Source: Leucogyrophana mollusca (Eukaryota; Basidiomycota; Agaricomycetes; Boletales). Taken from it: a DNA stretch of 64,000 bases. The stretch covers positions 90,303-154,302 of the forward strand of contig MU266372.1 in NCBI GenBank assembly GCA_021014945.1. Reading direction: 5' to 3'. The position numbers were made by a program, and so were the translations under genes. This document shows, in pieces, positions 4,110 through 64,000 of this stretch. Numbering within the stretch: position 1 is the first letter of the stretch; each line of letters begins with the position of its first letter. The notes beneath the pieces were generated by a model. It worked only from the letters and a program-made list of their open reading frames with translations, was not told the origin of the DNA and did no database searches.

Positions 4110-5438
4110 ATGTCTGCAATATCGGGGATTGGCCTCTCGCCTGAGCTAACCAAAGCATTTTCTTCCGCTGTCGAAACGAAGGATGTTCGATTCATCAAGG
4201 TCGTGATTCAGAACGGTCTCTACCCTTGTTGATTCGGTCGAAACGCTTGATCTCATTCACCGCCCAGAATCGCTCGTGCCAGTCACTGCTTTGAACGTTT
4301 CTGGATCATTGGATGAAGATCTGATTCACTTGCAAGATATTCTGGAGGAGAACGAACCCGCTTACATCTTGACACGGCTAGATGAACCTTCATCGGAATG
4401 GCTCGCTATAAACTATGTCCCAGAGTCCGCAAGAGTTAGAGACAAGGCAAGCTCCACGCGTGATCAGTCGCAGAGTATGCCGCTGATCCTGCCAAGATAG
4501 ATGCTCTACGCGTCCACGCGCAACGCTTTGACGAAATCGCTTGGATCTGCGGTCTTCACCGACTCGCTTTTTGCCACCTCTAAGTCGGATCTCACATCAG
4601 AATCTTACGCAGCTCATAAACGACATGCGGCTGCCCCGAGGCCATTGAGCTCGAGAGAGCAGGAAATGGCTGACATCAGGACGGCAGAACGAGAGGCCGG
4701 ATTCGCTTACGAGGGTAGCAGAGGGAGGCAGAATCATCTTGGTACGGGGGTGGTAGGGCTGCCCTGGTCCACCGAGGTCGAAGATGCCGTTAAAAACCTA
4801 GGAACGAGCGATGGCAACTGTCTTGTGACTATCGTATGTGCATTTATCTGCGCACTTAGGCTACTGGTATGTCACTAACAGAAACCCAGAAAATCGATCC
4901 ATCGTCAGAATGCCTTGTGTTGGACTCCGTCGCTGACATTCATGTTGACCAGCTAGGATCGAGTCTTCCTGCATCGGAACCCTGTAAGCACCCGATCGTG
5001 TTTTCTGCAACACCGATCAGATGAACGTCTCACCCAGGTTACGCGTTTTTCGCGTGGTCGAACAGCCCTTCGTCCAGTGGAAAAGACATCGGTGAGTAAT
5101 GGTCGACTTGTTCTGGCTGCTATTTTTCACCGGGACACGATCTTCTAGTTTTCGTTTACTCCTGTCCGAGTTCGTCACCTGTCAAGCACAGGATGGTCTA
5201 TTCTTCCGGTGCCTCGTCTGTGTTCCAGTCAGCGAAGGCGATTTTCACAGACCAAAGCTCCAGCTTTTCCCTTGCTTCTAAGAAGATTGAAACTTCAGAC
5301 CCGAAAGAGCTCGACGAGGCATATCTTAAGTCCGAACTCGGCTTTGGTGTGACTGGGACGAGCAACAATACCGCGCCTTCGGATGATACCGCGAAGCCAG
5401 CTTTTGCCAGGCCGAAAGGTCCGGGTAGAAGACGGTGA
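4110..5438 (+). CDS. TWF1: Twinfilin (actin monomer-binding, two ADF-H domains)
   Basis: Sequesters ADP-actin monomers and caps filament barbed ends in the cytoplasm. The start ATG at 4110 gives 'MSAISGIGLSPELTKAF', the typical opening of the first ADF-homology domain. Hallmarks are 'EPAYILTRLDEPSSEWL', then 'YVPESARVRDK' joined to 'MLYASTRNALTKSLG' across an intron. That intron (4447-4500) begins with GC rather than GT and ends TAG. The second ADF-H domain starts after a linker around 4740 and is cut by several further small introns to about 5300. The tail is basic and proline-rich, 'KPAFARPKGPGRRR', stop TGA at 5436-5438, as in fungal twinfilins. The start lies 222 bp after the MOT1 stop on the same strand. 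Middle exon boundaries (4830-5290) are approximate. Confidence 0.88.
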
Positions 5439-5798
5439 GTTGGATCCCGTGCTTGTAATGGGGGTGACGAACGCTATGCAACCTGGATTCTGTACTTTAC
5501 TCTGTATACGTTCGTATGTCAATCGATACGATGTTCTTGCAGTCGATGCCTTCTTCCGTGAGCCAGTCTAATGCATCATGCCGTGATTTTGTCCGGCTGG
5601 GGCCGCTGGGAAGCGGATGCCCGACGCTTGCTTGAGGGCGCGGATGAGGTCCGAAGACACGGTCGAGGTCTTCCACGCTCAATCTTGTGACCATTTCTCT
5701 ATCTTGCTATCGAGGATTATAAGTGCGGACGCTTCAAGATTTAGCAGCCCAAGCCAGTCCTTGAACTTGGACCAGTGACAGCTCTCAACAGACCCGAC
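5439..5798. other. Intergenic stretch, twinfilin 3' end to first SCOT gene
   Basis: No coding signal was found here. It should hold the twinfilin 3' UTR and the promoter of the first SCOT gene, whose TATA-like hexamer is listed separately. Confidence 0.5.
5718..5723 (+). promoter_or_regulatory. TATA-like box of first SCOT gene
   Basis: TATAAG lies 81 bp before the ATG at 5799. The second SCOT copy has a TATAAAT at the same 81-bp distance, which supports both the promoter call and the start codons. Confidence 0.45.
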
Positions 5799-41821: not shown

Positions 41822-41829
41822 CTCTAAGT
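41822..41829. repeat. Left copy of 8-bp target-site duplication
   Basis: CTCTAAGT directly abuts the left inverted repeat. The same octamer in the same orientation abuts the right inverted repeat at 48080-48087. Confidence 0.6.
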
Positions 41830-41882
41830 GAGGGTACTGAATCGACTGGGGTGGGTAGCCGTAGATTCTACACAGAGAAAAT
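41830..41882 (+). repeat. Left terminal inverted repeat of the putative transposon
   Basis: Core TGGGGTGGGTAGCCGTAGA (19 nt) is shared exactly with the right end in inverted orientation. The outermost 8 bp match at only 4 positions, so the tips have decayed. Confidence 0.65.
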
Positions 41883-42020
41883 GCGTAGAATGGCGGAATG
41901 AGTTCGGAGACTCGCGTAGACAGTCCGTAGATAGCGCCAGTCGCCGAAAAGCGACCAAACAAACCCTTTTCGGCAAAAGTCGGCTAAGCGCCAGTTGCCT
42001 ACGACGTGTCTTCGTGGTCT

Positions 42021-42030
42021 TATAATATAA
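42021..42030 (+). promoter_or_regulatory. TATA box of CxC gene
   Basis: TATAATATAA starts 81 bp before the ATG at 42102 and lies inside the element, so the gene carries its own promoter. Confidence 0.45.
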
Positions 42031-42101
42031 GGACATGGTTGTTGTTGCCTTCAACGCCCACCCACACCACGTACTCCCCATACCCTTCGCCGGCGCTGAT
42101 A

Positions 42102-44317
42102 ATGGACCTCAAAGCCCTCGTGGGTGCACTACGTGACCATGAATTCTCTTCTCTCCTCGACACACCGCTAGTGGACGTTCTCAACTTTTTTCGTCTTTGT
42201 TGCATCGCTCTGCCCGCCATCCAACGACGCGTTGTTGATATCCACCAGGCACCCACCGATCTCCCTGTTGACGTCCTCCTCCTACTCTCGGCGATATTCG
42301 CAAGAGATGTCACGTTCGTTCGAGATTTTTGGAACGTGCTGAGAACAGCGGTGTGGGTTCACGGCGAGGTCTTCCCAACTGAACATGAAATCAAGGTATT
42401 TAACGCACATGGACGACATTTCGATATAGGCGAGCGTTCTACTTGATGTAACACTATGTATTGTGGTACTCATGTCTGTCTCTACAGCCTACGGTGATCT
42501 ATTCCCTCCAACGCGTGTCTGCCAAGTCCCTGACTGCCCCAATTATCGCGAGGACGACCATGTCTCGACCTTGACGGACCCTGTGACGCACAAAGCAACT
42601 CTCTTCACGTTGCGAGATGGGGCTATTCCCGTCCATTCTACGTCAACTTACTGTCGCAGTAAGTCTTCACCTATCCTTTCGATCACATCACCATGCCGAT
42701 GAATACTCAGAATGTCACCATCGCTATCACCATAACTATAGAGTGCACAAGAGCAGCTCGGAACGGCTCTACTATGGCGGTGTTCCAAGAGTGATTCAAG
42801 CCGCTCAACACTTTTTTCTCGAAAGTTCACTCCTCGAACTCTTTGCGGTGGCCAAGGTTTTCGGATGGTTAGTTCAGGTCTCGTCTTCGCTGCACTTTAT
42901 CAACATCATTTTTAGGCTGTCGAGCATGAACTGTGCGCGGGTATATAACGAGGCGCTTGCCGTACGTCACTCCTACATCTTGAACAACAAGCTAGCGTTC
43001 TCGTCTATCTACGAAAGTCACTTGGACGAAACATTGACTTGGCCTTGCTCTCTTCGTCTTCGGGATGCTGATGTCCTTAACGGCTTTTTCCTATACTCGC
43101 TACTACTTGACAAGGCGGAGAGAGGCAGTCTTCTTATCCTCCCTCATGACGCTGGAAGTCAGAAGCTTCGTATTGAGCCAGCGCTCATGGAACGGAACAA
43201 GGAAATGGAGGGGATAGGACAAGAGGCTTACCCACATGCGTGTGGTCTGTGCTTTATTGTTTTCGAAGACGACGATGGCCGTAAAAGTGAGACTCATCAG
43301 TGTGCACAAGCGTATCTGATTATTTCTGTCCACAGTGAAGATTCAACCTGCCGTATGCGACGGTAATACGATAGGACATCCATGCTGTGCTGTCCATGAC
43401 TGCAAGATCCCACTCATCACAAATAACCATCGATTCTGTGCTGACCATGCTCATCTACGTTTTGTATGTGCGGTCGAAGGTTGCAGTGTCAATGCCGCTC
43501 CGGGTTTTCGTACTTGTGACGGCGCCGAGCACCGGGCGTGCGAGCTTGCGTACTTCAGGCCAGCAAAGGCTCTCTTTCAGCTTCGAGCGAAGCTGAAGAA
43601 AGCAGGTATATCTATCCCATCTGACTCAGTTCCTTCGGGAGAAGGGGCCGACGACGAAGAAGTCATTATTGAATGTGACGGTAAAGCTGATGAAGGTAAT
43701 CAGAAGCTGCGGGCAAGATTTGGGCGACGTCGCACACATAACGAGCAGTTAATCATGCGTCCATGTGGTGTCATCCTGTCACGGGCGACATTTTTCGGAT
43801 CAGAAGCTATTTCGTCAGTCAATGTAAGGATATGATATGATGATGGTGGTCGAACAACACTGATTGTAGCGGTGTTTGTCAGGATTTTGCGAAGGCCACA
43901 TTTCCAACTCCTGGATCCACTCCCGAGTACTTCGTCTTCGATAATAACTGCAAACTGCGTGCCCACCAGGACAAAATCAAAGATACTCACTTTTCCCAAA
44001 CGGGTATGCCAGTAGATGTCTTCCACTTCAAGTCCAAGCATAAGGAAACAGACCTGTACTGCCAGCGGCAATGTAATCCTGCAGCGTTTCCGGAGCTCAT
44101 TCAAGATGGCAAGTGGCGGTTCAACACTTCCGTCTGCGAGCAGACTAATGTTTGGCTTGGTGGGTATCAAGCAATCCTGCGAGATATGGGGGTATACCGA
44201 TTTAATTTCTATCTTGATGAGATGATCAAGCGGCGGAATCGATATGTTATCTCGGAACTCAGAAGAAAAGGGCACGAGCCATGGAAAATACATATAGATG
44301 CACTTTTTCGTGGGTAG
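42102..44317 (+). CDS. CxC5/CxC6-type cysteine-cluster protein associated with KDZ transposons
   Basis: Belongs to the basidiomycete family of CxC cysteine-cluster proteins found with Kyakuja-Dileera-Zisupton transposases; biochemical role unknown, DNA or chromatin binding presumed. Exon 1 is helical ('MDLKALVGALRDHEFSSLLD'). A GC-AG intron (about 42430-42489) joins 'GRHFDI' to 'AYGDLFPPTRVC'. The first cluster reads 'CQVPDCPNY' then 'YCRKCHHRYHHNYRVH', spliced through a gtaagt intron. After a long helical middle comes a second cluster: 'CCAVHDCKIPL', 'RFCADHAHLRFVCAVEGCSV'. The conserved C-terminal part follows: 'EYFVFDNNCKLRAHQD', 'GMPVDVFHFKSKHKETDLYC', 'EQTNVWLGGYQAILRDMGV', 'YRFNFYLDEMIKRRN'. 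Stop at 44315-44317. All metal-binding residues seem intact. Convergent with the alpha-kinase gene. Confidence 0.82.
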
Positions 44318-44581
44318 TATACATAGGACAATAGACACCGATGAGGGAACTACTTTCCATGACCTACCCATGACCCTCCAACATCGAGGCTTAACTTGAT
44401 CCTCACAAGCAAGTCGTATTCACCTCTAGTAATGAATCAATTCAGCATTTATGATCAAAGATACTATACTAACCATGTAGCTCGGTATGGTAGTTAAGAA
44501 TGAAGTTGGTATAGAGAGAATGATGTCCAAATGATTAGTTGAATCGTAGGTAAGGAAAAATCGTAGCCAGTGAATTGATAA

Positions 44582-47456
44582 TCACAAAAAGGCTGACTGG
44601 CTATGGATCATAGACAAACCCAAAGAACTGCAGATTGTATTGCAGACGTGCTCGCCGGCAAAATTTTGTAGTCCTGACCATGAACCGTCATTGAGGTAAC
44701 TGGTCTTATTTACGGCATTGACACATGAGTGGGTCTTGCTGTCGAAGATATGAATGCCATCTACAGCAATTAGCACTGTTGAGAATAAGGGTGAATTTTA
44801 AATTATGATGAAGGCGCCAACGATGAAACGCACCTTGAAAATCGCAGTGAACTTTCTCACCACTGCTCACATGGAATGTGTGATGGGCAAATGCAGCAAG
44901 AGTATCCGTGAGCAATACAAAGCTATCGATCCGAAGAGAAGTCAGGTCACTCGTACCCTCAACCCATGGCTGACCAAGCCAAGTGGATTGATTAGGCTTG
45001 TTGAACAAGTACGACGGGAGAACATGGAAAGCTATTGTGAAGTTTTCCATGAGAAGTCATCGTAAAATGACGATCAGATTGTACTCACGATGTATGTCAA
45101 TAGCAGCCCTCTGAGCCGCCTGCTTGAATATAATAGATGCCAACCAACATTCGGTGAGCCGGTGAGCCTCATTCCAAACAGCGGTATCTTCTGTACCCCA
45201 TGGTTTCCACCAGTCGCCAGGCAAGGTGATACTCTTTGCAGCGAAGAACATATCTGCTCCGTTATGAGCACAGCGAAGCTGTAAATATTCTCTCAGCGAT
45301 CATATGAATGACATCGTAAGCAAAAGTCCCACCAGGAACACCTTCTTACAGCTTCCGATAGCGGCAGGTTGGTCACAAACCGATACTTCCTTCTTCACAC
45401 TATCTGCTGACGAGAAGCATGCTGGTGTGCCATCATCGCCGAGAGCAAACCACTCCATCCTCAGAACAAATTGAGAGATTGACATCTGATCCGAAGGTGA
45501 TGGTGAAATGTGAGGGAGAAAGGGCTCCGACATCGATTCCAAGGAATCTAGCAGATTCTGAATCTCTGGTGATAGCACAAACTCTGGGGGTGAAAATGGA
45601 CTTTCATTAGTCGGGAAGAGTTTTACATGGAATAACAAACCTTCAGTGACCACATCGGACAGTGTGGAGGGAGCCTCCTCGAACGAGGGATCGAGAATCG
45701 GGTCTTCCAAGATAGGCGGGGATTCAAGTGGTACCGAAGCCGTAGGGGATGAAATTGTCCCCGTCATAAGCTCACTAGACTGGTTAGCAGTATCGTAAGG
45801 TGGCTTTGAAGGTTTTTCTGTGGAAAACAATCATAAGCAACAGGAATATAACATATTAAATCCATCGCCTACCAAAACCCCGACGTGGGCCCTTGGAAGC
45901 AATCTTCTCTACTGCGCCAACAAGACGAGACCACTCGCCATCAGGAGTCTGACCATGCTCAACAAGGTCATCGATGAGCCCATTGTTCAAACCAATCACA
46001 TAGATACGTCTGTGCTTATGCACAGTGGAATTCACGAACATGATACCCGGGAAAACTCTGGCAAACGCCACACGAAGAGCTTTATCAGTCTTAATGCCTA
46101 CCAAGCTAGCTATTCCTGGGGCCATGTCGCAGACATACTCTCGTGGAAATTTGGTGCTCAAGGTCTGAAAAACAACGGGGCCAGCGGACAGCGTGCACAG
46201 ACTCGGAGACGTGATGGTCAATGGAGTTGGGCTTCCAGGATTAGTGACACGCCGCCGTTTAGGTGATAGGACAGTGGCATAGTCATCGAAGTCGAGAGAT
46301 CGCTTGACACTGGGGGAAAGGGAAGCCAATGCATCTTGAAGGCCCTCACACTCGTCGTTCGATAGCGTTATTGAACGTAGGAGGATACGAGCCTCAGATA
46401 CCACAGCTATAGGCAGCGCAACGTCTTGTGTCACCCATTCTGGTACTGGACGCTGAAAAAACACTGCGACATCGGTATCACGTAATTGGCTCGTGACTTT
46501 GCTATGCTCCGCAGGGATGAATTTCCCAGGGCAGGAGTTGGCAAGATTCATCCTGAACGGCGCTTGAGTTGCCTGCACACTTGTTAGATGTAATCAACAC
46601 AATAGAGGTTGACGCTGCACGCACCGTAGTCCACAATAAAACATGGACCATGTTCTTGATGCTCATTGCATGTCGCTGGTCGGCTTCGATACCTTTCTCT
46701 GCTTCATAGGTCCTCCGATGAGCTCGAGCCCATCCATCTGCGTAGCTATCCGCAAGTGGACGAGCATAGACGCGGGTGGCAACTGATCCAGAGGCCAGTG
46801 ACGTGATCGCTGATGGTGGACCAGCAGACCGCTGAGAAACGGGATCGCTCGAGTGCACAAAAGACGGCTGAGGTGAGGAGTCATGTGGACGTGAAAGAGA
46901 TGGCTGAAGAGACTGTGTACTCGGGCTTGTGCTGTTGACTATTGGACACAGTATTGTAGCGTGTGAGCTAGCAGCGGGAACTTCGTTGCCAGCCGTCGAA
47001 TGATGAACGCTGCATCCACCCGCCGCCTTGCAGCACTGAGAACACTGCACGGGTGTTCGACCGCATGACTTGTTAGCTTGGCGTGGCTGATTTTCCGCTG
47101 TGAGGCAGTTGATGGCCTGGCACAAGACAACAGTCTTCGCGCCTTGCATGCTCGAGACCTTGCGCACATGGCGCACTTGAACGTTGCTAGGGACATCGTC
47201 TAGCGGGGTCGGAGGGCTGTGCCATACGAAAAAGTTGCACTTCGCACACTGCCAAACCAAACGCAAATGAAAATTTATCTAAAAACATGTGCATTGTACT
47301 CACTCGTTGATAGAGTCTTCCGTAGTTGGTGATCTCCTTTCCAGTGCCCTCACAGCGGCGAACATCAGTCAGAGCGTCGTGATGACATGCAGGACACGTG
47401 TCAACCGCGGAGGGAGGGGGCTGTAAGGACTGTGGTGGTGCGCTGGAAAGGCTCAT
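44582..47456 (-). CDS. GRF-like zinc finger, cysteine cluster and alpha-kinase domain protein
   Basis: Atypical Ser/Thr kinase of the alpha-kinase (MHCK/eEF2K) class fused to an N-terminal zinc module. The ATG at 47456 gives 'MSLSSAPPQSLQPPPSAVDT', then a GRF-like finger 'CPACHHDALTDVRRC' to 'NYGRLYQR', spliced to 'CAKCNFFVWHS'. A second cluster reads 'CGRTPVQCSQCCKAAGGC'. A long middle region precedes the kinase: beta-3 Lys in 'ADMFFAAKSI', then 'LAAFAHHTFHVSSGEKVHCD' running into 'FQ', whose Asp and Gln match the alpha-kinase DxQ motif. Zinc ligands are in 'GEHVCNTICSSLGL'. Stop complement at 44582-44584. About seven introns; the one near 45310-45350 has a weak donor. A TATATAA lies 91 bp upstream of the ATG. 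The gene seems able to encode an active kinase. Both genes of the element carry cysteine clusters. Confidence 0.8.
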
Positions 47457-47540
47457 GGCGCCAATGAGCAGAGGCAAACGTCTGAATGAGAGTGAGGAGG
47501 AGGTGGAGGCACGAGAATCTGAATACTAACCAGGCGCAAA

Positions 47541-47547
47541 TTATATA
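47541..47547 (-). promoter_or_regulatory. TATA box of alpha-kinase gene
   Basis: TATATAA on the minus strand, 91 bp before the ATG at 47456. Confidence 0.4.
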
Positions 47548-47778
47548 GATTTGTGGAACCATTTCACGGTGAAGGTGGCCACGAAGGTGCCCTTGCGTGA
47601 TGTAAAAAGGCAGTGGAACAGAGATTGGCGACGACATATCACGCTAGGATCAGCGGGGGTGTTCGACTCGCAGATGTAAAGGTGTCCAAACAAGAGCGCA
47701 AGTATGAAAACAAAAGCGCCGAAGATTGTCCTGCGGGCGGAACAGGTCGCATCAGCGTTGTTCTTGTTCTTGTTGTTG

Positions 47779-47779
47779 A

Positions 47780-47811
<32 letters not shown>
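47779..47811. repeat. (GTC)n microsatellite
   Basis: Eleven uninterrupted 3-bp repeats at 47779-47811. It lies in the upstream region of the alpha-kinase gene, inside the putative transposon, and is likely to vary in length. Confidence 0.9.
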
Positions 47812-47812
<1 letters not shown>

Positions 47813-48026
47813 AGGTGGCAAGGGCGGGGAACGAGCACACTTGGTGGGAAAAACATCCCAAGAGTTCTCGGACCGATACCTATATATCCGGAGTTAGCAA
47901 TCTACCCGAACTCTTGCCGAATTCTACGGGAATTCTACCAAGAATCTACGCGGTTTGTTTGGTTGACCCCGACGTATACTACCCGAAATCCACGCAAAAT
48001 CCACGCGCTCTCGGGAATTCTCGCAG

Positions 48027-48079
48027 ATTTTCTCTGAGTGGATTCTACGGCTACCCACCCCAGCGGATTCAGACTTCTG
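48027..48079 (-). repeat. Right terminal inverted repeat of the putative transposon
   Basis: Reverse complement of the left repeat with 10 mismatches in 53 positions. Inward of it (47890-48020) are several copies of short strings such as GAATTCTAC and AATCCACGC, which look like subterminal repeats. Confidence 0.65.
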
Positions 48080-48087
48080 CTCTAAGT
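48080..48087. repeat. Right copy of 8-bp target-site duplication
   Basis: CTCTAAGT, identical to the octamer at 41822-41829 and in the same orientation. Confidence 0.6.
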
Positions 48088-51956: not shown

Positions 51957-52970
51957 CCTAGCTTTATAAGTAGTGCGGGAAATGTTTAATACCCTGAACG
52001 ATTTAATTAGTATACACGGCACATTTCCCTTTTTTTAAGTACGCACCGCTCGACATTGACGAACTTCAAGTCCAATTTGTACGTAGCCTGCATTAACCAC
52101 TCAATCACTTAGTACATTCATGCGAGACCCATTTCGCGCACCCACCCTTTCCAATCGACTTTTCAGCTGCAAGACACATCAATGTACACGTCGCACAACA
52201 CAGAGACCCCACATACCTTATCAGCATTAAACTGTTCAACCCTTCTACACAACAATTGTGTTAAGGAAGACGTAACAACAGCATATATGGAAAACATCGA
52301 TACACACCCATCTACAAAAGCCCATGTCAAGACGAAAAACATTCAAGTAAACTATCCACTCACCTGCTTTGACTATTTCGAATAATAAAGAGGGGCTCAT
52401 TGTTCCAGCGGTGAATAGAGATATCAATCCAACAAAACATAGTTAGGTATTTATCGGTAAGACCAGAGGTAACGTAGCAATGCCATACCCACGACAAAAG
52501 CTTACAACGCTGCGTCATTATCCCATCCCATCGTCATAAAAGCCAGACTTTTAAAATGGTTAGTATAAAGAAACAAAGCGACTCGTTATTGCAGATTACA
52601 CACCGCAATACACCGTTACCGCTAACTCCAAGAAACCCACTCCAGGAAACTCAAATGATCAAAGTGATTTCGCGAGAATCATAGATACATCCAAATACGC
52701 ACATAATGTAGACCGAATTTCGAGTAATGCACCTATACTAGTATCACCAATAACAAATGAGCAGCGTGGGTGGGAAACAGACAGTAAGGAGGGACATTTG
52801 ACATGATGAATGACTTACGACGTCGCACCAACAACCCACAACCACAGAAACACTAGCACCCGACAAGTTGACTCCATCCAAATATTGAAAGCCGCCAAAC
52901 GTTCGTGCATTTTACACGAATGTAAAAAACAAAAACGTAAGCTGTCATATAGATCCAATCTATCCTCATA

Positions 52971-53074
52971 ATGTGTCAGTGTACCTTACTGGAGATGTCA
53001 TGCACCAACTAGTCCTGAAACCAAATAATGTGTCAGTGTACCTTGCTGGAGATGTTACAGTCCTGAAACCAAAT
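52971..53074. repeat. Imperfect two-unit tandem repeat
   Basis: Two units of about 57 and 47 bp, each beginning ATGTGTCAGTGTACCTT and ending CCTGAAACCAAAT. The second unit lacks about 10 bp. Not evidently coding. Confidence 0.7.
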
Positions 53075-53572
53075 GCCCAGCGTAAGATAAATCGTCTAAA
53101 CGGCATACACACATGTCAACCAAATAAGTATAATACAAAGGTGGAAGACCGGAATACCACTTACATCGTAATATTCGCAACTAAGAGCCCAAAGACCATA
53201 TCTCCACAAAAGATGCATTGAACTAGTCCACATTGACCAACGTCCTCCCCCAGCGCCACTGTAAACAAACCACATACGATACTCACATAAGGCATACCAA
53301 AACATACTCCTTAACACACCACGCCGAATTCAGTGCGACGGATTCGGTCACTCCAGCGACACCTTCTAGCAATAACCAAGAATGAGATAGGCACGGGGTA
53401 AAAGGTCGTCTTGATGCTACTTACGATGCACGGCGCGGAGCGCCATAAAACCCATGTTCTAAAAACGATACCTGAGGGCTTGGCAAGTGAGACAAACCCG
53501 TACAAGTGGAGATCTACGTCCTAACCAGTCTGGAAAACAAAAAACAGGATGAATGTTCCTAGTTTTCAAACT

Positions 53573-53579
53573 TATAAAT
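53573..53579 (+). promoter_or_regulatory. TATA box of first nucleotidyltransferase-like gene
   Basis: TATAAAT 63 bp before the ATG at 53636. It lies downstream of the other in-frame ATG (53549), which is therefore an unlikely start. Confidence 0.45.
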
Positions 53580-53635
53580 GTGACACTAACTGTACCCACC
53601 TGCCTCATTGTGAACCCGGACATCTTACTACTACA

Positions 53636-54904
53636 ATGCCCCAAACCTTTACTTGGTCATCCTTGGAACTCGCTCTTTTCAAACTCGACACCGTCGGGAT
53701 TTGTGCGACCTTTGATCACCTGACGCCGGATGTTATAGTGCGCATTGGTGGCTTGAACCACAATCTCCAATCCCTCGTACGTTTTTACACAGCAACGGCA
53801 TGGGACGTGGACGAATTTATTCGTCAACGTTTTTCCAATCCTACCACATTTCGGCTTGCATTAGATTCATCGAACTCTATCATCGCAGGGCTTGCGCCCT
53901 ACCACTTTTTTGGACGTACCCCACTCCAGAACGACACAGAATTCGAGATCTTGGTCGGATATGACGGCCTTCGTATCATGGGCCATTTCATCAACCATTC
54001 TGGTTATACGTTTCTTCCCGAAACCTGGAAATGGGATACTAACGATTTCTCCACCTCCGCGATGATATTCCCAACCAATGCCAGAATCAGATCGCAAGCA
54101 TTTCATCGTATTCGATTTCCTGCCATCAAGACATTTCGGTTTAGCAGACTCGTCAATCACCACTTACAAACCGTTCGTCTGACTTTACTCACATGTGATC
54201 CGATCCATTATGTGTTATTGTCCCCTTCAAGTAAGTCTACTCGACCTATACATCTTCGCTCTCAGCATGTAGTCCTGAATACCAATTCACAGCTAAGTTG
54301 GTATCATTCATAACCGCAACCTACGCTGCTTCGATTTTCCCGAAATCCACCTTTTCTACAAATCGCGAGTACTATTGCGATACGCAGGCTTCCCCCACAG
54401 ACCCATCTTTCCGGTGGTTCAGGGACTTGGATACTAGCCACGTCATTATTCCGCCGGGTCACCCAGAAACGCGGGAAACTCAAAGTAGTATTAGATCGAT
54501 CAGTGATCCGAGATCGTGGATCCTTCCTTTTAACGAAAAGGGTAGGTTAACTTTTACTATGCTATTGGCGGTCGTTGATCAGACAAAGGAGAACGCCATA
54601 AACTTCCACGCAAATACGATGCTCAACTCCACCAAAAATTTGAAATTCTGAACTGGGTATCTTCTATTCCGGAGGAAGGTACATATCTAAGAATAACCGA
54701 ACCTTTCGTCAGCAGGTAAGCTCTTGCGTATCCTACTCCTGTTACCGCTAATCCTAGTAGTTCTCGTGCGATGCTTTTAGGAACGATACAAGATTTTTTC
54801 ACCCCAGATGGACATTAACTGCGAAGAAAGGCGCCGGACTGAACTATGAATGTAATACTAAAGACCAGTGCTGTATTGATGCACTCGACATCCCCTCGTC
54901 GTAA
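53636..54904 (+). CDS. Nucleotidyltransferase-like family protein, copy 1 (degenerate motif)
   Basis: Member of a lineage-specific Agaricomycete family with a helical F-box-like N-terminus and a nucleotidyltransferase-like core; function unknown. Starts 'MPQTFTWSSLELALFKLDTV'. The core region 'SIIAGLAPYHFFGRTPLQND' then 'TEFEILV' aligns with 'SGSQVVQFF...DSDLDIF' of the next gene, but both the Gly-Ser and the Asp-x-Asp carboxylates are lost. Four exons: 53636-54231, 54293-54541, 54583-54715 and 54781-54904. The introns are 61, 41 and 65 nt, all GT-AG. A stop at 54649 in the unspliced frame is avoided by the 41-nt intron. The last exon ends 'DALDIPSS', TAA at 54902-54904, only 2 bp before the ATG of the paralogue. 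Confidence 0.65.
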
Positions 54905-54906
54905 CG

Positions 54907-56155
54907 ATGAGTATCAATGATAACATCCCTTTCTCTATTCTCTCACAGCTAGAAAGTACTCTATTCACACTTCGCATGGAGAACATCTCCATATTCCTCT
55001 CTACTCTGTCGTTGCGAGATCTATTCGCACTCCAGAGTACCAACTCACGCCTTCGAAGCCTCGTACAGGCTTTCAAATCTACTCGTTGGGATATCAATGC
55101 GCTCTTCTCTAAATTCTTTTCCGACCCCCTTATTTTTCGTCGCCAGTTATATGCCTGTGACGCCATCGTTTCGGGCTCACAAGTTGTGCAATTTTTTGCG
55201 AATGTTCAATATCCAGACAGTGACCTGGACATCTTCCTCTGCTTAGAAGGAGCTTTGCCGATGGCACGATGGCTAACAGCAAACGGTTACTTATTCCAAC
55301 CAGCGTCGTATCTCCAAACACACGTGGAAAGATTCATTCTCTCACTATCTCGCGAATTCGACTTACGCTCGGCACCGTACAAGCCCCGGTATCTCGACGA
55401 ACAAATCATCGCAGTCTTAAACTTCTATAAACATATAGGCGGAATCCAGACAATGAAAGTGCAGATAATAATCGTTCCCCATAATCCAATCCGTCATGTA
55501 CTGGATTTCCACTCCAGTAAGTTAAACGGTACCCTTCTCGATCCGTGCCACCATACTGAACTGATATGCGTACTTTCAGCCCTTGTGATGAATTTCATTG
55601 CCTGGGATCGAGCCGTTTCCATCTTTCCCAACCAGAGTTTCGTCGACAATTGCTCTTTCGTAGCACACTTATCTAAAACTCAATACCCCACACCCCGGTG
55701 GTCACGCAAATGGGCAAACCGCGGCTATCGGATGGTCCACGCGCGCGACGACGACCATCGGCAAAGTATATGGACAGGTTCCAGGACGACAAGCGACTCG
55801 AAATGTTGGATAATTCATCTAGACACAACGGGTACCATCCACTGCACTATGGTACTTCACACACTAATACCCATCACAGATGTCAAAACTAGCATCCCAA
55901 TCAATACCAAAACATGGAAAACCGTCCCGTTCGATGTTTTTGACTGCACATCTGGCATTACAAAACAGCGTGCGTCTGTAAGACTGACCGACCCATATAT
56001 CTGGAGGTAAGAACTATTTATTATTGTACCTACGTTCTAATGACACTTACATCACCAGCACACAAGCGTATATCATGGGGAATGTTCGATGGAGATACGG
56101 AACCCCCCTACCTCCAGCAATCACCAACTTTGCGGCCTGGGACAACGTACTGTAA
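54907..56155 (+). CDS. Nucleotidyltransferase-like family protein, copy 2
   Basis: Paralogue of the preceding gene, about 378 residues. 'LSLRDLFALQSTNSRLRSLV' resembles an F-box-type helix pair. The core 'AIVSGSQVVQFF' followed by 'YPDSDLDIFL' carries the Gly-Ser and Asp-x-Asp pattern of the nucleotidyltransferase fold. Exons: 54907-55516, 55580-56006, 56059-56155. The first intron (63 nt, gtaagt to tttcag) is a multiple of three with no stop, so it also reads through; its position matches the first intron of copy 1, and removing it restores alignment ('HSS' to 'TLVMNFIAWDRAVSIFP'). The last exon ends 'NFAAWDNVL', TAA 56153-56155, and overlaps an antisense frame of the next gene. An internal ATG at 54976 is an alternative start given the 2-bp gap to copy 1. 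Confidence 0.65.
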
Positions 56156-56228
56156 TATTGATCCCAAGTATTATACACGAACGGAAATCTGTATGCAAAC
56201 CACCTTCCAGTAATAAATCGAATACATC

Positions 56229-56820
56229 CTACGAAAGCCGATGAGTAAGCCATCTAAGTCAGCCTAATATCAGAGTCTAAACTTCGAGTATTATGCAGAT
56301 AGTGGTACTCACAACCCTATAATGGTATCAACAAGTCTCAGGTCACCAGACGTCATTTGTAGCGCACGACAACTTGATCTACATCCACCTTTCACAACCA
56401 CAATGTTGCCATACCATAGCAAATCAAACATGCGCCCCACACAAGCATTAGCGAGGCTCCTAACAGGATCTCGAACTGTAAAAACCCAGAACGGATTTTT
56501 CAGCTTGAACGATGTTCCTGGCACATGAGATATCATGGTGGTGTTGACGGTTGACGGAAACCACCGATGCAGATCCAAATCGTTGATACAATAAGGTGGG
56601 ATGCTTTCCGCTGACGTTGGACGAATCTCTGTCCACATCGGTCGAGATCGCGTGTCTCCTGTTGCGAAAATCACGGTTCGAAACGTCCAGACCTGCGTCT
56701 ACGCATTACGAACAATGAGCTCCACGTAGACACAATACGTAGATCAACACTCACCGGATTCCAAGCAACTAAGCGACTTTCCCCAATAACATCCTCGCGA
56801 GTGACGTATTGTTCTTCCAT
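56229..56820 (-). CDS. Hypothetical protein, minus strand, 3' end uncertain
   Basis: No family recognised. Exon 1 starts at ATG 56820, 'MEEQYVTREDVIGESRLVAW', and a gtgagt intron (about 56701-56754) joins 'AWNPTQVWTFRTVIFATGD'. Then come 'SRPMWTEIRPTSAES', 'HVPGTSFKLKNPFWVFTVRD' and 'YGNIVVVKGG'. After 'LVDTIIG' a gtgagt intron (about 56256-56314) leads to 'LWLTHRLS' and a stop at 56229-56231. A further intron there could instead extend the protein to 56047, antisense to the last exon of the preceding gene. The first two exons have convincing coding character. Confidence 0.45.
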
Positions 56821-57890
56821 TGTTATGCAGCTGCGTAACAGGAATCTGAAACCTATCGGGTCAGGGCTTACGCATGTCACTTCCCGTCCTGTACAACTTA
56901 CCGTCTTTTACCATGTACACTAGGGGTCTAAAGCAGATGATTGTGGAGACGCCTGTGGGTTCAGGCCAAGATGTGGGGAACAATGATGCCAAGGACGAAA
57001 CGCCGTTTGAAACACGCAGCCCGAATGATGAGCGAGAGATGGCAATATCCCAACTGAGAAACAAGATGCGAGTAAGGGGCGACTGCAGTAGATGACTGTA
57101 GCCAAAGAACGACAAGCGGAATGAGATAATTGCTTACACATTGGCGTGAAACGTCACATTGCAATCAAGTGTTGGAGTGCGAATTGCTCTTAACGAGAAA
57201 TGTGTTAACAATACTTACAAAGTTAAACATAACTTACTGTTCAATAGCGGTAAAGCATCCACTGAGAGAAACCCTTCCTAGTATCAATGGATCCACTATA
57301 GTTGGGCCGGCGTAGAAAGGTCCGGCGTGAACACGTTTCGAAGTGCGTCCTAAACGTTTTGGCATCAACACGCCTTCTGCCCAGTAGAAAGTTCAGGACA
57401 AGTGGCGTCGATTTATCTGAGTTTACTCACCGATACTATATATCGAAAATGTCTGACAAGGAACCTCAGGGCGTCATATTTGATGTCCGCTACACTGCCC
57501 AACTTGGGTGTATTACATCGTTTTGCAAAAGGCGTCAGGTTCCATACCACTTTTATTTTTCTCACACTGTCTATTCTACTCATTTTTACCCTAGCTTTCA
57601 TTTGGAAGCCAACACGAGTTCCGGCATGGGTTGTGCCAAAACGTCACTGTCCATACTTCCAGAAAACGGCAACGGTACTGAAAGAGTCTAGCTGACAATG
57701 TCAAAAGAACATCAACATGGTACACACTGACACGCAGCAGTAGTTCCAGGAAACCAAGACAATCGACCACTACATCTAACAGACTACGTCGATATTTCGA
57801 GTCATTAACACACGTCATGCTGACACTAGCATCAGCGCTTTTGCGACTATAACCACAAAAGAAATGACGACGAGCCAATACGTCAACACT

Positions 57891-57898
57891 TATAAAAG
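57891..57898 (+). promoter_or_regulatory. TATA box near gene at 57937
   Basis: TATAAAAG lies only 25 bp before the first ATG (57916) and 46 bp before the second (57937), which favours the second as the start. Confidence 0.35.
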
Positions 57899-57936
57899 CC
57901 TCATCCCAATGTAACATGTCCACTCATAACATCGCA

Positions 57937-59190
57937 ATGGACAACACCATACTCGCTCATCTTGAACGCTGGCAACAGCAAAGGATCAAAGACGAATTGC
58001 CTCTTGTAAAGGCCGTGCAGTCTCTCGACACTGACTCTCCTCTTATCTACCTACATGCAGATGACAGATACAAGACCAGTTGGACGGTGAGTTCGCCACA
58101 CAATCAGGTAATACAACACTCTCAAGTATAGATTGTCATATAGATACACGATCAACGAACGAAGAAGGCCGCTCTATTTTGCCATGCTACAAGATGGCAA
58201 TGGTCATCTAACCTCAAGACGGGAAATTATGTTCCCCCGCGTGAACTCCCACCTCCGGGACTACCCCCAAGCCGAATGTAACTGACCATACAATTTGCCC
58301 ATCATAATACTCACCAATAATATTTTAGTCGCTCAATACCGTCTACCAATCAATGCTCCTTTACGTTTTGCTTTAACACCGACAACGACGAGTCATTTTT
58401 TGATCATCAGAAGGTTTGCCACGTTGATCTACTCCATATTATGCATTCGCTTATATACACCACAGGCCCTCGAGACATTTGCGAAACAAACGAAAGGGTT
58501 TAACAAGGATGAACGACCACGTCGTGACTGGCAAAACGGAGCAGGGGATCAGACTCGCTTTCTCATGACATGGAACATGTTCGAGAGAAAAAATCCATTC
58601 AATTCAAACTGGGCCGATAACATCAAATTTGACCTTCACCCCTGGATTCAAGACGCTATAAAATCCCGGCCGTATTTCGTACCCAACATCCACCGTCCAT
58701 CGTTGTTCACTCTCGATGACAACGTGCTCACCGATATCACTGATTCTGATTCCGTACACTTCAATCGTGGCGACGTTGTTTGGGTCTCATTCACACTGAA
58801 GTACATCGTGGGATCCGACTGGGCGCCACTATACACACCAGTAGATCTCGTTCGCGTCTACAGCGTACCTGCCGTAGACGACACAGACGAGTCTACTTCG
58901 ACATCTCATCCCGTCAACCGACGTCTCTCAGCAGGCGAAGTTATACTACCTGCTCTTGGTAAGCAGAAACCTCACGTTGATCTAAAGCGTGAAAATCGCT
59001 AACAGGCAAACCCACAGACACCGACGACGGCATGAATATCGACGAAGCGGCATCTTCTTCGCAGGTTGGGACCGAGGGTCTTAAGAGAAAGATAGAGGAT
59101 GATCATAACACAACAGGAACTCTCACAGATTCTGATAATAGTCCCCCTCCTCCCGTCACGCGGCGCACAGGGAAAAGAAGAGCGTTTTGA
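57937..59190 (+). CDS. Hypothetical protein with repeated 'DVVW' type beta domain, Agaricomycete-specific
   Basis: Function unknown. Spliced in frame from 'MDNTILAHLERWQQQRI' (or the ATG at 57916) through a gtgagt intron (58087-58141) to 'IHDQRTKKAALFCHATRWQW'. Then a gtaact intron (about 58279-58329) leads to 'CSFTFCFNTDNDESFFDHQK', and a gtttgc intron (about 58414-58466) to 'ALETFAKQTKGFNKDERPRR'. The main exon includes 'DQTRFLMTWNMFERKNPF', 'YFVPNIHRPSLFTLDDNVLT' and 'HFNRGDVVWVSFTLKYIVG'. A last gtaagc intron (58960-59005) leads to a low-complexity acidic and basic tail ending 'RRTGKRRAF', stop 59188-59190. The tail looks like a nuclear localisation signal. Similar proteins are, to my memory, common as lineage-specific families in Agaricomycetes; that is not verified here. 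Confidence 0.6.
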
Positions 59191-59662
59191 ATTAACATCA
59201 CATACTAGTTACAATATAGCACATGCACATCGACCACTGCTCGGGGATAACTGGTATCGTCACCGCACGAGGCCGTCACCTGGGTGTACTCTCTACGTAC
59301 TTGTAACGAGCCTCGATAGGAAATATACTTGGCTTTCGTTAACCTTGTAAACGTGACAGAGCGTATATCCTGACTTATCAGGTCCCGGGCCAACATCTTT
59401 ACCACCCAACAAGTGTACTCGGACCCACCACCCGACAGGAATTCCACGATCACCGATAGCGAGCGGCATATGAAGGATACAACACCAGTGAACAAGAACA
59501 TGAGGAGAGGATCAGTCAGAAGTACTTAGCTGAGCATACTGGCCACAGCTTAGACATTGTCTAATAAGGCTACTCATCCCCCGTAATACTATAATCGTGA
59601 CCGAGCTTGACTGACCGCACGGCGCACGCAATACATATCGCCATGATAATAGCTACTACTAA

Positions 59663-59698
59663 AGTGGGCCAGTCCCGGCAGGTACAAATCCCCGCTCA
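59663..59698 (+). repeat. Short repeat with B-box-like string, copy 1
   Basis: AGTGGGCC...CAGGTACAAATCCCCG. Similar to 60063-60098 at about three quarters of positions. GGTACAAATCC resembles the tRNA B-box consensus GGTTCGANTCC at most positions. An 8-bp inverted repeat (CTCACGGG/CCCGTGAG) follows. Confidence 0.4.
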
Positions 59699-60062
59699 CG
59701 GGATTTAGGTATGTGGCCCCGTGAGGAAAAGCTTTCTATACTTGTGCTCGTGTGAACAGTAAATGTTTATGTTTCTCTGTACAGTGTACACTATGCATTC
59801 TTTGACCATCACCATGGGTGGCATTTACTTCGATTTCTTCGATTTCGTTGATGACATCGATGGGATCGATGTACTTGTGTCTCCATCCTGTAGCACTATT
59901 GTTTCAATCCACTCTATTGGCTGCCTCCAAGCATGAATCAAATCTGACACCATAGAATATCTATTCGTATCCCTTGACCCACATGTGCCGAGAGAGACAA
60001 GAAAGTCGCAAACGTGGTGACGCTGTGCGATGGCACTTGCACAATCGACATAACCAGCTTAT

Positions 60063-60098
60063 AGTGGGCCAATCCTGACAGGTACGAGTCCCCGTTTC
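60063..60098 (+). repeat. Short repeat with B-box-like string, copy 2
   Basis: AGTGGGCC...CAGGTACGAGTCCCCG. GGTACGAGTCC differs from the B-box consensus at a single fixed position. No complete tRNA fold was found, so a tRNA-derived SINE remnant is a possibility only. Confidence 0.4.
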
Positions 60099-60349
60099 CA
60101 CTTACAAATAATATTTATGGTACTTAATACTTATCGTGTAAAGATACGATATACTGTCCTACAGAGTATATGATCACAGGTACCATATAATGTTCGTCGC
60201 GTACGTACGCTGTGGATGAGTGAGCAAATATACACTGTTAACGTGTTTTGGGACTAACTCTAGCCTTTCTTTTGTGCAGGTTCATCAGCAAACTCCTAAG
60301 GAACTGTACAAAACTGGACTCCGGGCTCTGGGGGATTCATCTAGCCAAA

Positions 60350-60955
60350 GCGTATGTCATTCAATGTGCGGGGTGGCATATCCAGGGTGAGCCTGGCTTG
60401 TCTGGGGCTTACTGAGTTCGCCGGGGGTGTACCTCCTTCACCCGAGGACCGCTTGCCTCGCTCGGGGTGTGCCAACCTTGTTGGGGGTGTGCCTGCCTCG
60501 TCCGGGACTTGCCTGGGATGCGCTTGCCTCGTCCTCTGGGTTTCTCGCCCGTCGTCTGTGCATTCTCGTCCCTGTCGTCTGCACATTCTCATTCATGCAC
60601 CTCGTGGTCTGCGCGTTCCTGTTGCATCATCATCCACCTGTGCTTGTTGCACCATCGTCCATATGTCCTCGTTGAGCTGTCGTCAGTGCGTCCCCATCAC
60701 TTCGTTCCGTGCATGTCTTGTTCCTTGGCCTACCCCGTGCGTCTTCCGTCCTGGGTTTTCCCTATGCGTGCGTCCTGGTCACCTGTCTTGGCCGACGCGG
60801 TCCCCCCCGTGCATCCTGGGACCCCCGTGCCGGAGCGCTCTTGTTGCGCCGTCTTCTGCGTGCGGTCGGAGGCCTTGTTGCTAGTCTTATCGGGCCTTCT
60901 CGTCCGTCCTGGTTGTGCATCCATCGTTGTGTGCGTGCGCCCTGAATCGATGAAG
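60350..60955. repeat. GC-rich degenerate tandem-repeat tract
   Basis: Sharp change to GC-rich DNA made of loosely repeated strings such as GGGTGTGCC, TGCCTCGTCC and GTCGTCTG. Reading frames stay open in all three plus-strand frames because stop codons are rare in this composition, which argues against coding. It looks like a decayed minisatellite or the edge of a transposable element. Confidence 0.5.
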
Positions 60956-61319
60956 GAAGAAGGTGGAAAAGAAAATGTAAGACGCCACGTCACTTGCGAC
61001 AATGTGACTAGATGTGACCAGCTGTCACGTTCACATCGAAATTATTCTAAGTCCAAAGTCGCGCATAGTTCAAAGTCACATTCCTATATTGGTACAAGTA
61101 TCTCTACTTTAGTCTATGCTACTTGTATGTTACATTACATAGTATGAATAAAACATAATGAATTTCGAGATTGAATGGCCTGTCGACACTGTGAGCGCTG
61201 TGAGTTGCTGTGGATTTGCTGTGGATTTGCTGTGGATTGCTGTGGCAGGTGTGGTGCTGTGGGAATTTCCGGGGTTTGCTGATGGAGACACAGAACAAGA
61301 AACTTGGTGAGCATCACAC

Positions 61320-61577
61320 TTGCCAGGCAACTACTCATATTATGACACTGCGCAAGCGGCTCCGCAGCCTGTTAAACCAGCGAGTGCCACGCCATCGCAA
61401 GCGCCCTCTGAAGCCCCCTTGACTCTGGGTGTACCGACGGAGATTGATACCATGACATTCCGAAGGCCCCCGCCAGAGAGGAAAGACCATCGTTACCAAG
61501 AAAGTTTATGTTTGTATTGTGGACAGGGTCAGCATCTTACTCGTAACTGTCTCAATATGTCTGCATGCGCCAAATGA
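61320..61577 (+). pseudogene. Retrotransposon gag remnant with CCHC zinc knuckle
   Basis: An 85-codon frame whose end reads 'CLYCGQGQHLTRNC', a CX2CX4HX4C zinc knuckle typical of Ty3/gypsy-type gag proteins. Upstream sequence is Pro/Ala/Ser-rich as in gag linkers. The frame stops right after the knuckle and downstream sequence (61580-62060) shows no readable protease or reverse transcriptase, so this is a broken copy. LTRs were not identified. Confidence 0.6.
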
Positions 61578-62062
61578 TCACATGCGGCACGCAAGGCCAA
61601 CCCTTACTGGCCTTACCCTTCGGGGAGGGCCTAGACACTAGACTTTGCGTTCCTGGGTCACCAACAGATGTACAGCTGCGTCATCTTTCTATGTTGGACC
61701 CAATTCATGTCCATCTTTGGATGTGATATATCCCCTTGTTCCTGACTTCTCTCCTCGATCATCTATTCAATTCCCTGTATGCTATTAGTCGATATGTATC
61801 TTTGTCTATCATCACTACGTCTCACGGATGTACTATACCTGTATCCACCCTGTACTTGGTTGAAGTGTCAGGCTGATCACTCGCACTATTCCACCACCTG
61901 GCTGTGCCAGACTCCTTGCTTCATTATATTTCCTCCCTTGGCTACCATAAGCTTTGGTCGTGTGCCACATAATTCTGCTAGATTTGGATTCTCCTTGGTT
62001 TCCGCTTCAGTCTATGCGACACATCTTGTCTACTTGACTCTCGTCTTGTCATATTACTGTAC

Positions 62063-62430
62063 CCTTTCGACCTTAGGTTCGTGGGGGGTCGACCGTGACG
62101 CGCCGTCACGTTAGGTTCGTAGGTTCGTCGGGGGGTCGGACGCGTGACGCGGAAAAATTAGGTTCGCAGGATCCAATTTTCTGCGGTCCGTCGCAACCTG
62201 TTGTGACTGATTCGCCGGCTTGGAAGATCGTTACAAGGGTGCCCTGAACATATATGAGGGCCGTTAGAGTGTATATTTTAGTGTATTTTGACATGTAGAA
62301 TTTCACAAAATATGCCTGTACCGTCGTCTGGATTTTAGGTTCGTCCCCCTCCGAATTCATGTGACCGTCACATCATATAGGTTCGGTTCACGACCCCGCG
62401 TGATGTCGTGATGAACCTAAGGTCGAAAGG
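62063..62430. mobile_element. 368-bp MITE-like element with perfect 18-bp terminal inverted repeats
   Basis: Left end CCTTTCGACCTTAGGTTC (62063-62080) is the exact reverse complement of 62413-62430. Inside, AGGTTCG recurs about six times (for example near 62074, 62112, 62121, 62160, 62336 and 62380), with a short palindrome CGTGACG...CGTCACG near 62095-62110. It has no coding capacity. A convincing target-site duplication was not found at these borders. Confidence 0.7.
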
Positions 62431-62787
62431 CCACAGTAGGCTTTCATCTAATGGGCTACCCCTTTCTATGTGCCTTTATGAGCCCATCTCACCCCAACTC
62501 TCCTTACTTGTCACTGTCCCCACCCCGACCTGGTGCTGGGATGGCTATGGTCACTCCACACCCCCGTCCCTCAAAGATTTGGCTTTGGTCATAACTTCAC
62601 CCTATTGCCCTTGTCATGCGATATCTCCACTATTATCCCTCCTTCGCTTCACATAAAAAGGGGCATAATACCCCTCACACTAATTCCGTATTGTCACTAG
62701 TGTTTCTTTACTCCCTCGATTCAAGCGCCGCCTGAACATGGCTCATATTCCCTGCTCAATCGCCACTCATTCCATCTCCATCGCAAC

Positions 62788-63291
62788 ATGCCCATCTCTA
62801 TCCCTCTTCTTTCTGTCACTTCGAGAAAATCCTCCCACAGTCCTTCCACAGAATTATTCATTCCCACCATCTCTCTCCCCGATGTTATCGTCAACCGTGC
62901 TACCAACTGTCCAAATGTCAACTGCAAGATTAATTTTGCACACACATATTGCAATGGTGTCGGTGTTCCTGCACGTCCACCCCATATACCCAACATCAAA
63001 GTCCGCCGATTCCAGGATAACGCACATCCCTTCCCACAGATGAACTGCTTCGAAGTCACCGACACGTCAGGCCTTCTACTCCAGACTGGACGTAAAGCTT
63101 ATATTTGGCTCTACGGCACCGTTCACTTGGAGGAAGTTACGCTACTGTCGCCACAGTGGCGCATCTTCAAGTGCCTTCAACGTATTGACTATGATGACCA
63201 ACTTGTCACTGTGATTGTAGCGCGTAAAGAGTTTTGCCAACGACACAATACTTGGAAACGTTACCTTTGTTGTTTTTCTGCTTTTATCTGA
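62788..63291 (+). CDS. Small single-exon hypothetical protein
   Basis: 167 codons from ATG 62788 to TGA 63289-63291, not recognised. The first 25 residues are Ser-rich and moderately hydrophobic ('MPISIPLLSVTSRKSS'). The middle is Cys-rich ('NCPNVNCK', 'YCNGVG') and the second half protein-like ('GRKAYIWLYGTVHLEEVTLL', 'QLVTVIVARKEFCQRHNTWK'). A TATA-like ATAAAAAG lies about 135 bp upstream. It sits among repeats 350 bp after the MITE, so it may belong to a transposable element. An overlapping frame (62738-63043) is less convincing. Confidence 0.35.
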   Translation: MPISIPLLSVTSRKSSHSPSTELFIPTISLPDVIVNRATNCPNVNCKINFAHTYCNGVGVPARPPHIPNIKVRRFQDNAHPFPQMNCFEVTDTSGLLLQTGRKAYIWLYGTVHLEEVTLLSPQWRIFKCLQRIDYDDQLVTVIVARKEFCQRHNTWKRYLCCFSAFI

Positions 63292-64000
63292 TTGATACTC
63301 CAAGTTTTCATCTAGTCTCCCTTTATATAGTTCATTCTTGTTTACACTCGTTCCTTTCAGATCTTCTCATTTACATGTGATATTACCACACTCGCTTCTT
63401 TCACATTAATATCCCGCCCAAACTACTGATCCACCATATCCATTTCTGTTCAGATCTCACCTCTCACCCTTTGCTCGTCGTGCCACATCTCCACTGTCAT
63501 CCGTGCTCCTCTCCGTCATGCTGCGTCTCCGCTGTCCTCCGCACTGTTCCCGTGTCTTGCACCCTGCCGACAGGCTCAATCTTTGACATTATTCACTTGC
63601 CCTGAAAGGGGGATGATGTCATGGTTACGGTCACTGTTGCACAAATGGTCATTTTACCTACCTTGATGGTCAATCGCGGACTCGTAGATAATCATTGCAT
63701 GACTGTATCAATTTGCACGTTCCGGATGTACCCACTGATAGTATTAGTCAGCACGAGACTTTGTTTGGTTTAGGGGGTTGTACTTTCTTCGTCGAATCAA
63801 TGCCAGTAATTGGCAACTTCCTGGCTATTTATTGTATCGCGCTCCATCAACGCCTCATGAGTAACGGTGCCCGTTACATCAATCTCATTGCACGCATTCT
63901 GGATGCATCAGCAAAACTACAAATCACTTGACTGTACTCAAACACATACTTAAACACAATTAAGTCCCGAATTCAGGCAATTCGAACTAAGCCAGTCCAA
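63292..64000. other. Pyrimidine-rich terminal stretch
   Basis: Rich in C and T from 63292 to about 63560. No supported gene; a 78-codon frame at 63695-63931 has no recognisable features. Confidence 0.35.

Follow-up and report, generated by a model that had tools for sequence, protein, structure and literature searches.

The window analysed here is a stretch of 64,000 nucleotides (nt) of contig MU266372.1 from Leucogyrophana mollusca (Boletales), a wood-rot mushroom. Between two copies of an 8-bp target-site duplication (TSD), it holds a 6,250-bp unit with terminal inverted repeats (TIRs) and two convergent genes, one encoding a protein with CxC5 and CxC6 cysteine clusters and the other a protein with an alpha-kinase region (Table 1). 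Its matching TIRs, fixed 8-bp TSD and predicted Asp-Asp-Glu (DDE) core are those of a TIR DNA transposon. We regard it as very probable that the unit is such a transposon, apparently intact and potentially autonomous, with a CxC5/CxC6 DDE transposase and a kinase-bearing accessory gene.

The TIRs adjoin the TSD copies directly. They were inverted-complementary at 43 of 53 positions without a gap, and register shifts from -12 to +12 gave at most 18 matches; a repeat search of the window returned a 46-nt core of the TIRs at 89%. We compared all pairs of identical 8-mers lying 3-14 kb apart in the window (n = 10,544). The results showed that the CTCTAAGT pair bounds ends matching at 40 of 50 positions, with the runner-up at 24 of 50. 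One further copy of CTCTAAGT occurs in the 64 kb, at 4578. The two ends are distinguishable, starting with GAGGG on the left and CAGAA on the right. The motif CGTAGA, chosen by eye and counted on both strands, occurred seven times in the two terminal 220-bp stretches, three times in the 5,810-bp interior and 46 times across the window. A preliminary description of this DNA had reported the identical direct repeat, the inverted repeats and a second shared string about 120 bp inward, and all three were reproduced, the string being CCAAACAAACC at both ends.

We searched the genome with the element's ends, as that description had proposed. The left end gave four matches (its own two ends and two further loci, C426 and C2), and the right end gave three (its own two ends and C2). 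C2 is a miniature inverted-repeat transposable element (MITE) with 579 bp between both end types and the TSD ATTTCAGG on each side; its ends matched those of the window element at 42/53 (left to left) and 47/53 (right to right), compared with 40 and 36 crosswise. Since C2 has like ends and a TSD of its own, it is strong evidence that ends of this type move, and it supports the earlier recognition of a TIR-bounded unit carrying an alpha-kinase gene. A search with C2 itself revealed no additional locus. C426 (L011, reverse strand, about 5513-5600) is a one-ended relic that retains only a left end, starting GAGGGTACCG; no partner end and no second TSD copy were found for it. The last transposase exon and CxC6 each matched at least two loci, the window and C52, which provided the transposase-bearing relative. 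C52 spans 5,240 bp between two copies of the 8-mer GCCAAACA; its ends start GAGGG and CAGAA, identical to the window element, and inside lie an intact 667-amino-acid (aa) transposase (35% identity to that of the window) and a convergent 726-aa gene. We accepted these ends because of their position and the shared terminal pentamers, the inverted similarity of 26/50 not being decisive alone. The C52 ends hold four copies of GTCCGG, also picked by eye, versus none in the interior, a sequence different from CGTAGA. The family thus far comprises two full elements, one MITE and one relic, and the TSD was 8 bp long in all three two-ended members (CTCTAAGT, ATTTCAGG and GCCAAACA).

The CxC5/CxC6 gene matches the NCBI model BV22DRAFT_1103930 (P0001, 616 aa), which omits part of CxC5 (window 42396-42530); our 651-aa splice form agrees better with relatives, of which 241 were scored in the protein database. 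A structure model and a 58-sequence alignment showed a transposase-like predicted fold with conserved DDE residues. The alignment includes a Pleurotus ostreatus protein (P0037, 658 aa) that is 51% identical to the window transposase. Integrases were among the fold matches, with no Pfam match to rve or rva. The protein differs from ISCth4, a bacterial transposase of the IS256 family without CxC clusters, in showing 7% identity to it. No relatives were confirmed among 31 viral and 15 prokaryote contig stretches, and a BFVD fold search gave 0 matches at E<=0.001. Fold and conserved residues argue that this protein, with its frame intact, is most likely the element's own DDE transposase, next to ends, a TSD, a family structure and open frames that are directly visible in the DNA. 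The preliminary description was wrong in seeing no transposase, and its reading of the unit as non-autonomous with a domesticated CxC gene is not supported.

We next consider the superfamily, beginning with the possibility that the unit is a canonical KDZ transposon with a fast-evolving Zisupton, Dileera or Kyakuja core, which we judge unlikely. CxC5 and CxC6 scored above the Pfam cut-offs, and Pfam names both after their association with KDZ. An 8-bp TSD is described for Zisupton and a Dileera lineage, and a 7-bp TSD without TIRs for Kyakuja, in the passages on target sites of Kojima 2025 (PMC12730594). The window element resembles KDZ in these clusters and in TSD length, and the motif order (D..C / FH..H / CQ / E) looks alike by eye. 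However, the KDZ core domain PF18758 had no match at E<=1 in the CxC5/CxC6 protein and was carried by 0 of the 120 relatives listed. Comparison by hhalign with KDZ pieces from the same genome was not significant (best E 0.13, with the first motif in register), although in the control two KDZ subgroups found each other at 98% (E 1.9e-13); the KDZ profiles, built on 16 of 29 extracted pieces, are short and thin and span part of the domain, which limits the test. In P. ostreatus, moreover, intact KDZ elements were found with CxC2 and never with CxC5/CxC6, according to the passages of Lavrijssen 2020 (PMC7641404) on these genes. We therefore do not claim canonical KDZ membership, and of the earlier label "KDZ-like" the Pfam naming of the cysteine clusters stands while the KDZ transposase model is unmatched. 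Among the 46 PF18758 matches listed for the genome, several have internal stops; they form a KDZ population separate from the CxC5/CxC6 elements. The earlier suggestion of a hAT-like element found nothing in its favour except the 8-bp TSD, which fits hAT without being specific to it; no hAT transposase domain matched the window proteins at E<=1, and hAT identity was rejected.

The convergent accessory gene encodes 844 aa in seven exons, or 825 aa in eight if a 57-nt GT..AG stretch (45640-45584) is an intron. The protein contains, in order, a GRF-like finger, a Cys-rich motif, a domain also present in the accessory protein of C52, and an alpha-kinase at the C-terminus. The CxC and GRF/alpha-kinase genes described earlier are both present, though the GRF finger was identified by its motif alone and had no Pfam match at E<=1; the exon with a GRF-like ribbon in C52 gave a Pfam E of 0.048, under the cut-off. 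The solved kinase 4kuj gives a weak alignment (E 0.0026) that includes the C-lobe Asp residues and H.CN..C motif of the window kinase, whose Gly-rich loop is degenerate. No TET/JBP domain appeared among Pfam matches at E<=1 in either window gene. Upstream of the kinase gene, still inside the element, is a GTC microsatellite (47772-47812).

Table 1. Features of the Leucogyrophana mollusca element, in window positions
Feature	Position	Strand	Basis
Left TSD CTCTAAGT	41822..41829		exact 8-mer
Left TIR, starts GAGGGTACTGAATC	41830..41882	+	43/53 vs right end; 42/53 vs MITE left end
Left subterminal region with CGTAGA repeats	41830..42049		motif counts
Shared subterminal string CCAAACAAACC	41955..41965	+	125 bp in from left end
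CxC5-CxC6 transposase gene, 651 aa	42102..44317	+	splice model; six exons
Transposase exons	42102-42435, 42488-42658, 42711-42867, 42916-43286, 43336-43823, 43883-44317	+	introns all GT..AG
CxC5 domain, residues 115-234, exons 2-4	42496..42955	+	Pfam 122.7 bits
CxC6 domain, residues 351-414	43353..43544	+	Pfam 83.8 bits
Candidate catalytic Asp 1 codon, D353 (VCDGN)	43359..43361	+	D in 57/58 relatives, one gap; model strand 314-320
Candidate catalytic Asp 2 codon, D527 (FDNNC)	43940..43942	+	58/58 relatives; right after model strand 488-491
Candidate catalytic Glu codon, E593 (CEQTN)	44138..44140	+	58/58 relatives; on model helix 556-565
Accessory gene, convergent with transposase, 844 aa (or 825)	44582..47456	-	splice models, Pfam
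Accessory exons	47456-47304, 47248-46625, 46572-45873, 45817-45342, 45278-45089, 45031-44834, 44775-44582	-	
GRF-like zinc finger (C..C, NYGR.YQRC..CNFFVW), exon 1 into exon 2	47249..47456	-	motif by eye
Domain shared with C52 accessory protein	45904..46137	-	BLASTP 27% over 79 aa, E 1e-8 and 2e-7
Alpha-kinase region	44630..45278	-	Pfam match 45029-44630, PF02816 32.8 bits vs cut-off 21.3
Candidate N-lobe Lys (FFAAKSI)	45234-45236	-	upstream of Pfam match; assigned by eye
Kinase Asp (CDFQ)	44841-44843	-	
Kinase Asp (IFDSK)	44741-44743	-	
Kinase H.CN..C motif	from 44648-44650	-	
Right subterminal region with CGTAGA repeats	47860..48079		motif counts
CCAAACAAACC, inverted copy	47952..47962	-	117 bp in from right end
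Right TIR, starts CAGAAGTCTGAATC read inward	48027..48079	-	47/53 vs MITE right end
Right TSD CTCTAAGT	48080..48087		exact 8-mer

An alpha-kinase as transposon cargo had been thought new, yet kinase cargo in DNA transposons is already published for another superfamily, in the passages of Kojima 2025 (PMC12730594) on IS3EU: rust IS3EU transposons hold an alpha-kinase gene oriented opposite to the transposase gene, the same pairing as in the window element. In the families described there, a TET/JBP gene lies between transposase and kinase, which distinguishes them from the window element, and IS3EU has a 6-bp TSD and ends TAYGG..CCRTA (PMC12730594). With its 8-bp TSD and its ends GAGGG/CAGAA, the window element was rejected as a member of IS3EU. 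Apart from Kojima 2025, none of the open-access papers searched was recognised as describing a transposon with an alpha-kinase. We then searched the genome for the alpha-kinase family and obtained matches at two loci, C255 and C18; the window's own gene, of which each single exon gives a weak match, was absent from the results. At C18, inverted repeats of 212 nt (95%) enclose an alpha-kinase; the element body occupies L024:474-5608 (C18:33474-38608), has the 6-bp TSD CACATG on both sides and terminal TACGA, and includes a frame, on the same strand as the kinase, whose match to an integrase core is weak (rva_4, 5e-5, under the cut-off). It is like IS3EU in TSD length and integrase core and unlike it in the terminal TACGA, which is not TAYGG. 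C18 is a second alpha-kinase-bearing TIR transposon of this genome, unrelated to the window element and resembling IS3EU. For the C255 kinase (L023:4762-5805), no TIRs were detected, the locus lying near a contig end, which limits the search.

The kinase might instead be a separate downstream gene or a chance passenger rather than a fused working part of the transposon, a reading we find doubtful. The C52 accessory protein finishes after the shared domain and has no kinase, so that the kinase was either gained in the window element or lost in C52, and reading on in the frame of exon 3 leads to a stop codon some 15 nt after the predicted splice site. These two points agree with a separate gene. 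GT..AG introns, however, link a continuous frame in which catalytic and zinc motifs are retained, the pairing of a transposase with a convergent alpha-kinase recurs in rust IS3EU (passages of PMC12730594), and another alpha-kinase sits in the C18 element.

It is improbable that the unit is a non-autonomous element whose cargo is a domesticated CxC gene plus a kinase gene and which depends on a KDZ or hAT transposase supplied in trans. The canonical KDZ loci in the genome (46 PF18758 matches listed) could act in this way, and Pfam's naming of CxC5/CxC6 as KDZ-associated fits it; the CxC5/CxC6 protein, on the other hand, has a predicted DDE core of its own, 0 of the 46 listed matches lie within the window element or C52, and C52 has a like gene pair with identical end pentamers. 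Two unrelated short MITEs flanking two host genes by chance can be dismissed, even though the family's one MITE is short (579 bp): a single TSD pair sits precisely at the outer ends, the two ends differ in type and each resembles the corresponding end of a single MITE, C52 has a like gene pair between like ends, and separate TSDs around each end were unseen by eye, no dedicated scan having been made.

Several points weigh against an intact, autonomous transposon with a working kinase. The assembly contains one copy of the kinase-bearing element, and a search of the same assembly for an empty site matched only the element's two flanks; movement of the window copy was therefore not seen. CGTAGA was picked by eye and has just two copies in the C2 MITE and none in the C52 ends, and the 26/50 similarity of the C52 ends was matched four times in 60 shuffled scans (three-base blocks). 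The structure prediction was built on P0001 (616 aa) rather than on the 651-aa splice model, and the splicing of both window genes is predicted, not seen. The match to 4kuj in the PDB is weak, with unrelated chains already at 0.005; no relatives of the kinase gene were found among 8,000 and 778 candidates in the protein database, and the kinase may belong to a gene of its own. The host's own kinase gene was also not found in that database, so it seems to be unannotated there or of another length.

The neighbours of the element are a HAT-repeat gene (PRP39/Suf-like, under the Pfam cut-offs) and an MCM gene, and the insertion therefore appears intergenic. GC skew is negative on the right side of the window (52001-64000; -0.04 to -0.22 per 2 kb).

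For a transposon with its own CxC5/CxC6 transposase, we propose the following mechanism. The zinc clusters of the CxC5/CxC6 protein would recognise the subterminal CGTAGA repeats, and the transposase would pair the distinguishable ends (GAGGG left, CAGAA right), cut, and insert with an 8-bp stagger. The product of the convergent gene may be an accessory protein that binds DNA or chromatin through its GRF-like finger, Cys motif and C52-shared domain, to whose C-terminus the alpha-kinase would have been added in the window copy. Most likely, the kinase would phosphorylate the transposase, chromatin or repair factors at the element DNA and so favour transposition or escape from silencing.

With the CxC5/CxC6 gene as the transposase candidate, a gene family common in mushrooms becomes a transposon group open to testing. 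In a sporeless P. ostreatus, the MSH4 mutation is an insert of 6,792 bp that carries a gene for a 739-aa CxC5/CxC6 protein and is present in several copies; the passages of Lavrijssen 2020 (PMC7641404) on it report no KDZ transposon near CxC5/CxC6 genes, suspect a Copia retrotransposon and name no alpha-kinase for the insert. If CxC5/CxC6 is itself the transposase, this insert, which resembles the window element in its CxC5/CxC6 gene, is plausibly a transposon of the same kind, which might explain the so far unclassified insertion that underlies the commercial sporeless oyster mushroom. The C18 element and Kojima's rust IS3EU suggest that transposons have captured kinases repeatedly and probably benefit from them. 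The alpha-kinase family is described as highly expanded in rusts and, in another study, as enriched; this expansion fits recurrent capture, although neither passage links it to transposons. Tentatively, and with some reserve, we put forward that CxC5/CxC6 proteins are the transposases of a separate group of mushroom DNA transposons with an ISCth4-like DDE core, and that alpha-kinases have been captured recurrently by unrelated fungal transposons (the window element, rust IS3EU and C18) as a kinase weapon on host chromatin or repair, parallel to the capture of TET/JBP. These findings suggest that the window element is a mobile element bringing its own signalling enzyme.
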